From contig NZ_REFY01000002.1 of the NCBI RefSeq assembly GCF_003841485.1, positions 248,001 to 312,000 on the forward strand: DNA of 64,000 nucleotides, written 5' to 3'. Positions 12,339-46,878 of this stretch are shown here, in pieces (positions within the stretch are counted from its first letter, which is position 1; every line of letters begins with the position of its first letter). The stretch is from Natrarchaeobius halalkaliphilus. Lineage in GTDB: Archaea; Halobacteriota; Halobacteria; Halobacteriales; Natrialbaceae. A program made the position numbers and the translations under genes. Under the pieces are notes generated by a model that saw only the letters and a program-made list of their open reading frames with translations, made no database searches and had not been told where the DNA came from.

Positions 12339-12386
12339 GAGGTGAAACGTTACCGTCCGCGAGCAAAAGCGCTCGGGAAGTGTGTG

Positions 12387-43640: not shown

Positions 43641-43910
43641 ATGAAACCGTGCCACAACTGTCAGGCGGTCATCGACGAGTACATCCTCGACAAACAACTC
43701 GAACCCCTGCGCGAACTCACAGTCGACGACTTCAACCTCTGTGTCGACTGCGCGACCATCGTCCCCGGTGCGTGCATAGAGTGCAACGGCGCGGTCTACG
43801 TTCCGCGAGACGTAACCGTCACGCCCGATTTCTGTCCCGCGTGTCGATCCGACCACATCGAACGCTCGGGTTACGACCCCGGCTGGAATCTCGAGACCAC
43901 GTCAGTCTGA
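43641..43910 (+). CDS. Zinc-ribbon protein with four CxxC motifs
   Basis: 89 aa from ATG 43641. Four CxxC pairs, CHNC, CVDC, CIEC and CPAC, can bind two zinc ions, and the spacing alternates in a treble-clef-like way. No DNA-binding or enzymatic motif is seen. It is the last ordinary gene before the accessory stretch. Confidence 0.7.
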   Translation: MKPCHNCQAVIDEYILDKQLEPLRELTVDDFNLCVDCATIVPGACIECNGAVYVPRDVTVTPDFCPACRSDHIERSGYDPGWNLETTSV

Positions 43911-44469: not shown

Positions 44470-44859
44470 TTAGGGTTTACAGTCTACCACTTGTTCCTGC
44501 GGTTGGAATCCACTGGACAAGTCATGAAGGTAGACTCCGGGCTGTGCCAACCAGCCGGTACTCCTATCCCCACCCAAACTGGGTGCAGACTTGGAGTTAC
44601 TTTCCTTGTTGATGTTGAGACGGATGTTTTCCGCCCCGTTCACATCAGCGTTGAACGCCGCGTCACACGCCTCACAGACGTACAACCCGCGTTCAATACG
44701 CTGATTATCGTCTTCCGTACCGCACACACAACACGTCTTGCTCGTGTCGCGCTCTGGAACTTCTACGACTTCGATCCCCTCGACTTTCGCCTTGTAGGAG
44801 AGGATTTTCGCTCGATGGGTGCGGTGGACTTCCAACATTCTGAACGTCTGTATAATCAC
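44470..44859 (-). pseudogene. TnpB (IS200/IS605-type RNA-guided nuclease) C-terminal fragment
   Basis: Only about 120 residues remain of a normal roughly 400-aa TnpB. They begin in the helix before RuvC-III (FRMLEVHRTHRAKILSYKAK), then GIEVVEVPERDTSKTCCVCG and YVCEACDAAFNADVNGAENI, i.e. the four-Cys zinc finger and the last catalytic Asp (NADVNGA). The tail WLAQPGVYLHDLSSG ends as in intact haloarchaeal copies. RuvC-I/II are missing, so no nuclease can be made. Confidence 0.8.
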
Positions 44860-45028: not shown

Positions 45029-45577
45029 TCACGGGAGGTTCTCAGTCACGTCAACGAGTTGCTCCTCGGTCCGCCAGCGATACAGTCGCCCTTTTTTCTC
45101 GAACAGTTCGAAGACGCCGTCCTGCATCCAACCAAACGGGTACGTTTCATCCTCATACTCTCGCTTGAGGACATGACTCTTCGAGAAGTACTCGGTCGTA
45201 CCGACGAGGAGTCCCTGTTCGACGAGGAAGTCGCTCGGTTCCTTCTCAGCGACGCCGACGAGGTAGGTCACGATATCGGCGATCAGGCAGAACTTCTGGA
45301 TGCTATTGTCCCACTCTCCACGGATGTCTACCATCCGGAAGGCATAGGTATCCTGGCGACGGTTAAGGCGGTCAACCACCAAGTTCAACCGACGAATTGG
45401 CTCTCGATCATAGTTCCCGAGCACAAAGTACGATCGATCGTTCTCGTAGACCAGTGTCAACTCGCTCAAAGCGTGGAGAATTTCCTCGTTGTCTGCCAAC
45501 GAGATTTCATCCTCATTGAGTTGGTCCTTAGCGCTCGTAAGAACCCCTTCAGGGACAGGCGACTCCTCGTCGGACAT
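45029..45577 (-). CDS. Unknown 182-aa haloarchaeal protein, possible Rossmann-like effector
   Basis: 182 aa. After an acidic N-terminus, SYFVLGNYDREPIRRLNLVV and DRLNRRQDTYAFRMVDIRGE give strand-helix-strand, then KFCLIADIVTYLVGVAEKEP and SDFLVEQGLLVGTTEYFSK look like the ADxV...ELG part of TIR/SLOG/deoxyribosyltransferase-like nucleotide-binding folds. That comparison is by eye. No signal peptide or membrane segment. It is divergent from a winged-helix regulator with operators between them, the layout of a regulated accessory module. A TATA box (CATAAATCATAT) lies about 30 bp upstream. Confidence 0.6.
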   Translation of the reverse strand: MSDEESPVPEGVLTSAKDQLNEDEISLADNEEILHALSELTLVYENDRSYFVLGNYDREPIRRLNLVVDRLNRRQDTYAFRMVDIRGEWDNSIQKFCLIADIVTYLVGVAEKEPSDFLVEQGLLVGTTEYFSKSHVLKREYEDETYPFGWMQDGVFELFEKKGRLYRWRTEEQLVDVTENLP

Positions 45578-45604
45578 ACACGGCCCTTCTCAGTGACGTG
45601 AAAT

Positions 45605-45616
45605 ATGATTTATGGA
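45605..45616 (-). promoter_or_regulatory. TATA box of the 182-aa gene
   Basis: On the minus strand CATAAATCATATTT sits about 28-40 bp before the ATG at 45577, predicting a leaderless transcript. A TTTACC half-site at 45621 lies immediately upstream, over the BRE. Confidence 0.5.
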
Positions 45617-45620
45617 GTAA

Positions 45621-45675
45621 TTTACCGAGTTGACCATAGCCTGGTTTACCCTTCGGTAATTTACCCGAGGGTAAA
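45621..45675. promoter_or_regulatory. Tandem palindromic operators between the divergent genes
   Basis: Three related TTTACC sites: a half-site at 45621-45626; TTACC-CTTC-GGTAA at 45646-45659; and a perfect 16-bp palindrome TTTACCCGAGGGTAAA at 45660-45675. The last abuts CTTAT at about 45679-45683, the probable TATA of the regulator gene, and the first abuts the TATA of the 182-aa gene. A dimeric winged-helix protein binding here would control both genes. Confidence 0.65.
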
Positions 45676-45706
45676 CTACTTATCACCGGGACGTATACCC
45701 TTCCAT

Positions 45707-46120
45707 ATGAGCACTAATCTGGAGGCTGCTAAAGGGACCAAACCTCGCGAACTGATCCACTTCGTCACCCAACAGACACGGTTCGCGCTCATCAACAACA
45801 TCCTCCAGCACCCCGAGCAACTCCCCTCGATGTACGAACTAGAGGAACTCAACCCCAGCGTGAGCGATGCCACTGTCTACAAGCATATCCAGAAGCTCAT
45901 CGATGCTGGCATCGTGAATGAAGTCGCGCTAGACGACGATCAGCGCCGGCAGGGCTACCCCTGGAAGTTCTACGGTCTTACAGAGGAGGGACGAGACTTC
46001 CTCGAGGAGCACAACCTGCTCGCCGCCGAGGAGACCCTCCAGCAAATCTACGAAACAATCTCCGACAAATCCGAAAAGATGGTCAAATACGAGAACGCAC
46101 CACGTCCCGACGAGTCGTAG
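45707..46120 (+). CDS. PadR/MarR-like winged-helix regulator
   Basis: 137 aa from ATG 45707. TRFALINNILQHPEQLPSMY, ELNPSVSDATVYKHIQKLID and FYGLTEEGRDFLEEH form a winged helix; the recognition helix is around SDATVYKHIQKL. The C-terminal helix ETLQQIYETISDKSEKM could dimerise. Codons use more A/T than the ribosomal genes nearby. It most likely controls itself and the divergent 182-aa gene through the palindromes at 45621-45675. Confidence 0.8.
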   Translation: MSTNLEAAKGTKPRELIHFVTQQTRFALINNILQHPEQLPSMYELEELNPSVSDATVYKHIQKLIDAGIVNEVALDDDQRRQGYPWKFYGLTEEGRDFLEEHNLLAAEETLQQIYETISDKSEKMVKYENAPRPDES

Positions 46121-46180
46121 TTGGTCACACTCTCCGCCCGCAGAAGAGAAACACGGTTATCCACGACAGATCGAAGCGCG

Positions 46181-46317
46181 TTATTCGCTCTCGAGGAGTT
46201 CGCCGACGTATTGATCTTCCTGTCCCTTCTCGACGAGACCTTTGTCGACGATGGTATCGAGGTTTGGGTACAACCGTCCGTGGTGGATATCCTTTTCGTA
46301 AGCACGATCCGGTCAAT
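46181..46317 (-). pseudogene. PadR-family regulator remnant
   Basis: Reading leftward to a TAA at 46181-46183, the frame gives AYEKDIHHGRLYPNLDTIVD, KGLVEKGQEDQYVGELLESE. HGRLYPNLDxLVxKGLVEK is the wing of PadR-type helix-turn-helix proteins. An in-frame stop lies just upstream at about 46318, and no start codon or N-terminal helix is present, so this is a broken 3' fragment. Confidence 0.65.
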
Positions 46318-46670: not shown

Positions 46671-46692
46671 ATGCGCTGGCTGGGATTTGAAC
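46671..46692. repeat. attachment-site-like copy of the tRNA-Gly 3' end
   Basis: 22 bp identical to 46807-46828, i.e. the discriminator base, the 3' acceptor strand, the T-arm 3' strand and part of the T loop of the tRNA-Gly gene. Identity stops sharply on both sides. Such 3'-end duplications are left by tRNA-targeting integrases. The 114 bp between the copies contain CTCGCTCACGCTCACTTCG-type low-complexity repeats and a stray TTCAAATCC. No integrase is seen in the window. Confidence 0.65.
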
Positions 46693-46807
46693 AACGCGAA
46701 GACGGTCCTGCTCGCTCACGCTCACTTCGTTCGCTCGCGGGTGCGACTTCTCTCGTTCAAATCCAAGTTCGATTCCTCTCGCTCACGGAGTTGTTCGCGA
46801 AAGAAAT

Positions 46808-46878
46808 GCGCTGGCTGGGATTTGAACCCAGGTTGTGACCATGGCAAGGTCACGTGATACCACTACACTACCAGCGCC
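46808..46878 (-). tRNA. tRNA-Gly(GCC)
   Basis: On the minus strand a complete cloverleaf: acceptor GCGCTGG pairing with CCAGCGC, D-arm region TAGTGTAGTGG, anticodon stem GTGAC/GTCAC with loop CTTGCCATG (anticodon GCC), T-arm CTGGG-TTCAAAT-CCCAG and discriminator A. No intron. CCA is not encoded. A GTATAAG box on the other strand (46911-46917) lies about 35 bp upstream. Confidence 0.95.

Follow-up and report, generated by a model that had tools for sequence, protein, structure and literature searches.

What is the role of two small divergent genes lodged in a short islet beside a tRNA gene of the haloarchaeon Natrarchaeobius halalkaliphilus, and do they form one unit? The window (the whole stretch of DNA analysed, 64,000 nucleotides) is a piece of haloarchaeal chromosome, in which the islet is bounded by a DUF7571 gene ending at 43910 and by tRNA-Gly(gcc) at 46807-46877 (minus strand). 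The islet contains a C-terminal remnant of a TnpB-type protein (44470-44859, minus strand; PF07282 at E 2.9e-18, and only positions 325-387 of the 389 of NF040570), the ATG-initiated gene of a 182-aa protein (45029-45577, minus strand), hereafter the effector, and a divergent gene for a 137-aa winged-helix protein (45707-46120, plus strand; the start at 45707 is likely, judging by homologues), hereafter the regulator. Both genes are present as described in the first-pass annotation, which had taken them for a tightly repressed, defence- or toxin-like module within a mobile islet. The reading that we favour, with a probability of roughly 0.43, is that the pair is an auto-repressed switch with an effector of nucleotide N-glycosidase fold, frequent in the backbones of large haloarchaeal plasmids and in their integrated relatives.

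The TnpB remnant is debris of mobile DNA within the islet. On the opposite side, a 22-bp copy of the 3' end of tRNA-Gly (46671-46692, identical to 46806-46827) forms an attachment-site-like repeat. Among relatives, 12 of 14 loci (counting the own genome) kept a tRNA-Gly gene close to the downstream gene seen here, partial copies of its 3' end were found in L289, L290, L292, L294-L296, L299 and L301, and the whole tRNA gene was duplicated in L293; islet sequence upstream of 46671 was absent from the relatives' flanks when these were compared by blastn (about 1.5 kb fetched from each). The retained tRNA-Gly, the additional copies of its 3' end and the lack of the islet in relatives fit a hot spot of integration whose elements have decayed. 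The earlier description of the islet as mobile is thus borne out by the adjoining tRNA-Gly repeat and by the existence of plasmid-borne relatives. A single old unit composed of DUF7571, TnpB and the pair was considered and rejected, as in the fetched relatives DUF7571 and the tRNA-Gly with its downstream gene stand apart from the islet. At 46160-46290, next to the pair, inspection by eye revealed what is left of a further PadR-like gene, now decayed.

The 182-aa protein had been called an orphan, which it is not. Relatives of the effector were detected in 93 of 125 genomes of the same family, in 180 of 293 genomes of the same order and, by profile search, in 126 of 194 genomes of the class; in the phylum sample 30 of 294 genomes matched, and all 30 were the own genome or belonged to the same family or order. 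The window effector matched 64 plasmid records and its relative on pNG600 matched 92. The own genome carries two more distant members of the family, at C8:32832-33599 (L002) and C1:623656-624210 (L154), the former also with a divergent winged-helix gene. In the mobile clade, to which the window belongs, both the effector (median dN/dS 0.068, 534 pairs) and the regulator (0.081, 539 pairs) are under purifying selection, and the medians for both genes in this and a related chromosomal clade lie within 0.07-0.15. No family of Pfam, NCBIfam or PADLOC matched the window effector, PHROGs gave no convincing family (best E 0.033), and a sequence search of the PDB returned no meaningful match. When 34 members of the effector family were searched against Pfam, 17 families appeared at E up to 1 (best 0.0094, one family in two members), and neither PF05014 nor the TIR families (PF13676 and kin) were among those 17. 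Origin as a phage gene was rejected: neither protein was matched in the phage collection, and three effector queries found zero confirmed relatives on viral contigs. A description of this gene pair was not found in the literature within reach (most subscription papers lay outside it), and the pair appears to be undescribed as far as such a search could show.

The model of the regulator (pLDDT 89, pTM 0.82) superimposed on the solved structure 3u1d, a winged-helix protein of Halomicrobium mukohataei, with Z 18.1 and an rmsd of 1.9 over 125 aligned residues at 28% identity, and a profile comparison with the same protein gave E 1.5e-20. The two proteins share fold and family, and the title of the 3u1d entry names no function. 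In PADLOC the regulator weakly matched Csa3-type models (E 1.2e-5), as winged helices do.

Between the two genes lies a 129-bp spacer (45578-45706), which is of similar length in most loci whose effector is at least 80% identical. The first-pass annotation had pointed out three TTTACC sites here, and three are indeed present on the plus strand (45621, 45645 and 45660), with a fourth on the minus strand at 45670 in addition. The 64 kb contain six copies in all, a chance-level total (7.0 expected), and four of them sit within 55 bp. The element TTTACCCGAGGGTAAA, described before as a perfect 16-bp palindrome, matches perfectly in its two 7-bp arms, but its 2-bp centre is not palindromic and the strands differ there. 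This element, TTTACCC-GA-GGGTAAA at 45660-45675, is the main candidate operator. A second palindromic unit, TTTACCCTTCGGTAA (45645-45659), lies 15 bp upstream of it, and the two units form a 15-bp tandem. The main unit is directly followed by what looks by eye like the TATA box of the regulator gene, CTACTTATC (45676-45684, plus strand), 31 bp before the regulator ATG. At the other end, back-to-back half-sites, GTAATTTACC (45617-45626), stand beside a TATA-like box of the effector gene, TTTAT at 45609-45613, which by eye adjoins this distal site. A degenerate form of the palindrome with up to one mismatch occurred in none of 100 shuffles of the window.

These elements were followed through 90 distinct spacers, taken from pairs of the mobile clade and of the chromosomal clade related to it whose starts had been aligned. 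The pattern TTTACYC-NN-RRGTAAA, which was written from the same spacers on which it was scored, was found with at most two mismatches in 88 of the 90 (shuffles 0.4%), and the two exceptions are 46%-identical Halococcus pairs. In 83 spacers its distance to the regulator ATG is exactly 31 bp, and in 82 the second unit stands 15 bp upstream of it (shuffles 0.1%); a conserved cTACTTG follows it in the consensus. On the effector side, 52 of the 66 spacers of the mobile clade contain GTAAWNNAC, placed 37-39 nt from the effector ATG. Of 20 solitary close regulators, 19 have retained the palindrome. The proposal of tandem operators therefore stands for the close clades; in 41 distant pairs, the pNG600 type included, no palindrome was found with at most two mismatches. 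This absence means that shared control is shown for the close clades only, and the operators of the distant pairs, if they have any, would have diverged. In the chromosomal clade (L102, L109 and L110 are examples), 19 of 22 spacers carry repeated TTTCCG elements on the effector side, where the mobile clade has its half-site, so the control of the effector may have changed there. In the own genome the pattern occurred once with up to one mismatch, at this very spacer, which suggests a local autoregulator, while the reversed-pattern control gave 3 and 2 hits and leaves room for a weaker regulon. The regulator is a probable autorepressor, probably acting as a dimer.

The two genes were also expected to be conserved together, and they are. 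Effector and regulator were divergent, with starts within 500 bp, in 125 of 133 loci; the collections behind this count overlap, and in L014, L098 and L123, at least, one partner is reduced to a fragment. In the regions of distant relatives, 31 of 40 were paired by direct spacing and 6 more had, on the opposite strand, a regulator that overlaps an over-long frame, leaving 3 (L162, L165 and L166, where the effector was matched only in part) without a regulator. When distinct intact sequences were counted, 93 of 96 effectors shared their locus with an intact regulator; the three others lie at a contig edge (L095), beside a regulator that is mostly gone (L014/L098/L276) or in a locus with altered ends (L271).

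The reverse relationship was looser. Thirty-two of 125 distinct intact regulators had no effector scored as intact, in a sample partly chosen for lacking it; among these, L071 and L082 contain a full effector frame without the expected start codon, and the effector of L067 has a premature stop. Of 28 regulator regions selected by eye for having no listed effector nearby, 19 were without any effector trace within about 2 kb, two held remnants, one held a fragment, and six held a 266-aa paralogue with its own regulator. The loss or breakage of the effector while the regulator is kept is expected of a costly effector, and a dispensable enzyme would fit too.

Further observations were made in these regions. 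Broken or partial effector copies were seen in L239, L262, L265-L270 and L272, with an intact regulator adjoining in L239, L262, L269, L270 and L272. In the six loci with the 266-aa-type paralogue (L249, L251, L252, L254, L257 and L260), which has its own divergent regulator (about 32-33% identity), a second regulator (82-86% identical) follows, so that two regulators flank one effector. In L241, L243, L245, L248, L258 and L259 a palindrome-bearing regulator without an effector, located at about 2.0-2.7 kb of each locus, comes after a 272-aa protein that by eye resembles a SWIM zinc finger; AbiE-like genes (named by eye) lie upstream of the solitary regulator in L243, L245, L258 and L259.

The effector itself was approached through its predicted structure. 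The AlphaFold2 model, built with 39 aligned sequences (the window protein and those of related loci), reached pLDDT 81.4 and pTM 0.80. It predicts an N-terminal helical extension followed, over residues 45-182, by a five-stranded Rossmannoid in a three-layer alpha/beta sandwich, with strands (48-53, 77-81, 105-110, 134-139 and 165-168) alternating with flanking helices from residue 48. Among realigned PDB matches, which cover about residues 45-182, the best was DNPH1 (Z 12.0, 2.7 A, 121 aligned), followed by the CMP N-glycosidase MilB (11.2), TIR-STING (11.1), two 2'-deoxyribosyltransferases (11.0 and 10.1), the SPARTA TIR (10.6), the retron-Eco1 effector (10.3) and SEFIR (10.3); according to the tool's own note, a model for which Foldseek has no clear match typically reaches a best Z of 7-8. 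The fold assignment rests on this realigned list, the plain Foldseek lists being noisy: their single match below 1e-3 was an evidently irrelevant receptor complex, with the retron-Eco1 effector at 2e-3 and NDT at 5e-3. Against viral models Foldseek returned several proteins named nucleoside 2-deoxyribosyltransferase (E about 0.0025-0.04). The resemblance to TIR, SLOG and deoxyribosyltransferase-like proteins that had been suspected from the sequence thus agrees with the structure prediction and with the PDB realignment (Z 10-12), and the segment ADIV...VEQGLLVG, on which the suspicion was based, corresponds in the model to strand 3 and the helix with the conserved glutamate.

Residue conservation was counted over 132 aligned effector sequences, the window included. 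The residues following strand 1 are G54 (130/132), [NS]55 (125/132) and Y56 (122/132); E111 (132/132) ends strand 3, and E120 (131/132) with G122 (129/132) forms an E-x-G in the next helix, E120 being the second residue of helix 119-126 in the model. R139 (130/132), Y141 (131/132) and W168 (131/132) are similarly constant. According to section 15 of PMC9503650, the active site that distinguishes the TIR-DrHyd-SLOG (TDS) class of Rossmannoid nucleotide-processing domains lies where strand 3 ends and in the helix that comes next, and this is the position of E111 and E120 in the model. The predicted effector shares with that class the five-stranded Rossmannoid sandwich, the polar loop after strand 1 and the glutamates at the strand-3 end and in the next helix, as these features are set out in PMC9503650; it differs in matching no named branch by sequence, in its own N-terminal helices and in its own signature of KR-x-Y and W168. 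As no sequence-level homology to any TDS branch was found, we file the effector by fold and pattern, and not as a TIR or an NDT. By its modelled fold it would belong to the nucleotide-processing enzymes of the TIR/deoxyribohydrolase/SLOG type, which act on the N-glycosidic bonds of nucleotides by hydrolysis or transfer, or bind nucleotides, and which count many immune and toxin proteins among them.

The same section of PMC9503650 mentions inactive members of the class that bind nucleotides as sensors, and the effector could accordingly be a sensor instead of an enzyme, binding a nucleotide signal such as a derivative of ADP-ribose or NAD without cleaving it and modulating the repressor, so that the pair would be a ligand-gated transcription switch. 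The steady pairing and the single genomic operator would suit such a co-regulator. However, E111 and E120 are more constant than mere binding would appear to require, the close regulator was found with no trace of its partner in 19 of the 28 regions above and so does not need it, and no reading frame fusing the two proteins was found in 173 loci. We consider a sensor unlikely, though it is the alternative that survives best.

An enzyme of another purpose is a slightly weaker candidate. DNPH1, MilB and the nucleoside 2-deoxyribosyltransferases are standalone metabolic enzymes. They (PF05014) are the closest folds of the effector (Z about 10-12) and have the E-x-G in the helix after strand 3 in common with it, and the effector could be a DNPH1- or MilB-like hydrolase for nucleotide housecleaning or salvage, removing an unwanted nucleotide (e.g., a modified one of phage or plasmid origin) that induces it via the regulator. 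The chromosomal clade is in line with this: its effectors (67-77% identical) were compared in 15 loci from Natrialba, Natrinema, Halopiger and relatives, and they sit at one shared Natrialbaceae locus, where 11 of 15 share a given flanking gene and the effector is under purifying selection (median dN/dS 0.153, 35 pairs). The neighbours in similar places, which by eye we take to be an HTH-CBS-like (11/15), a DUF555-like (11/15), a penicillin-acylase-like (11/15) and a proteasome-beta-like (10/15) protein, describe the same locus. Residence at a single chromosomal locus in Natrialbaceae is accounted for by usefulness to the host no less well than by a plasmid toxin. Against housecleaning, 24 plasmid records from many genera carry the effector at an identity of at least 80%, which is unlike salvage genes, and separate PF05014 (DNPH1-like) genes scored above the cut-off in 19 of 61 sampled genomes of the same family, the own genome having none. 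On balance we regard housecleaning as improbable. By sequence, the PF05014 profile does not match the window effector, and an hhalign comparison with 12 haloarchaeal DNPH1-like proteins was not significant (probability 0.3%, E 0.23), although it placed E120 opposite the E of their YELG motif.

To return to the auto-repressed switch, two kinds of known systems offer parallels. The retron-Eco1 (Ec86) effector, which is held by the reverse transcriptase and msDNA, combines an NDT-like domain and a winged helix in one NAD+-hydrolysing protein. The same two kinds of fold occur here (effector chain Z 10.3), but in two divergent genes instead of one protein; retron effectors with NDT and WH parts are described in an excerpt of PMC12548924. 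A reverse transcriptase was noticed neither in the annotated neighbourhoods that were read nor among the best 25 of 133 Pfam families in 147 neighbouring proteins, and the pair may be likened to a split version of the retron-Eco1 effector by analogy, not by membership. Autoregulated toxin-antitoxin modules and phage-repressor switches resemble the pair in having a small repressor beside its partner and tandem operator-like sites at both promoters; unlike them, the two genes are divergent and the winged-helix regulator also occurs alone, and for a toxic effector neutralised by its neighbour the one sign seen is the asymmetric loss described above.

The settings of the mobile clade were compared in 35 loci of over 11 kb with effector identity of at least 77%. 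Within 9 kb of the effector, a relative of orc1 was present in 18 loci, a 107-aa hypothetical protein in 16, a 273-aa hypothetical protein in 11, polB in 9 and ArdC in 8. In 14 long loci whose effector is less than 77% identical, plasmid-type neighbours of this kind were not seen. The pNG600-type pair lies between ArdC and orc1/polB, so that two alleles, about 44% identical, share this kind of plasmid backbone; an excerpt of PMC3528665 lists pNG600 among replicons with an orc/cdc6-associated origin, and for the bacterial namesake of ArdC an excerpt of PMC7213743 states that it is needed in the recipient during conjugation. The neighbours in 26 loci were also scanned, 147 proteins once the regulator itself, picked up in one locus, had been removed from the initial 148. 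Among the best 25 of 133 Pfam families, Cdc6_lid (13/147) and DNA_pol_B (5/147) were the commonest. PADLOC at 1e-10 gave, among the best 25 of 34 families and with no control set, HEase 4 times, mad3 3 times and others once each. The first-pass annotation had raised a defence role; in these 26 loci, with no control neighbourhoods, replication genes are commonest and PADLOC matches are scattered, and a defence island finds no support in them. In L129, on the Haloplanus rallus plasmid pMBLA003601, a Piwi-domain gene starts at 12365, about 5.8 kb from the effector.

Such company could suggest that the pair serves plasmid maintenance (copy control, incompatibility or exclusion, or post-segregational killing tied to an Orc1/Cdc6 replicon, with the window and pNG600 types as interchangeable alleles), as the frequency of orc1 and polB neighbours, the place of the pNG600-type pair between ArdC and orc1/polB and the 92 plasmid records with its relatives would allow, but many copies are chromosomal, and regulator-only loci and broken effectors exist, so that the effector looks dispensable for maintenance and we hold this the most doubtful of the three alternatives.

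The auto-repressed switch joins what was observed at these loci, namely the pairing, the conserved operator pattern of the close clades, purifying selection, the predicted fold, the near-invariant acidic pair and the frequent plasmid-backbone context. Weighing against it are the lack of significant sequence homology to enzymes of the class in the hhalign and PDB comparisons, the operator pattern missing from the 41 distant pairs, the shared chromosomal locus of Natrialbaceae, and neighbours that are most commonly replication and not defence genes. In its mechanism, the winged-helix protein, probably dimeric, would bind the 15-bp-periodic TTTACYC-NN-RRGTAAA array, and since the array abuts the promoter elements of both genes, the regulator would repress itself and its divergent partner. 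A dimer covering the tandem units would block the regulator's own TATA region, and occupancy of the distal site would block that of the effector. The effector would cut the N-glycosidic bond of NAD+ or of another nucleotide by means of E120, assisted by E111. It would be silent with the repressor in place and expressed once the repressor is missing or inactivated, as might happen upon entry into a naive cell, upon plasmid loss, or under phage attack or stress; the pair may have a role in conflict or in maintenance.

The setting beside ArdC suggests a more specific form of this switch, which we regard as a long shot. Archaeal conjugative-type plasmids would use the pair, placed beside ArdC, Orc1 and PolB, as a zygotic-induction switch that is unrepressed during the first minutes in a repressor-free recipient; a burst of the TIR/NDT-like glycosidase would alter the NAD+ or nucleotide pool or destroy an ADP-ribose-type immune signal, the plasmid would establish itself or exclude competitors, and the repressor would then shut both promoters. 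If true, archaea would, to our knowledge, gain their first nucleotide-cutting entry module of this kind.

As an auto-repressed switch or otherwise, the pair is an unnamed two-gene unit that is present in many haloarchaea, often beside plasmid replication genes. The unit is compact, its operator is sharply defined in the main clades and two alleles are plasmid-borne, which makes both its regulation and its enzymology directly testable in common laboratory strains of haloarchaea. With its effector, a widespread and unnamed archaeal family would join, by predicted fold, the class that stands behind TIR immunity, retron effectors and SPARTA.
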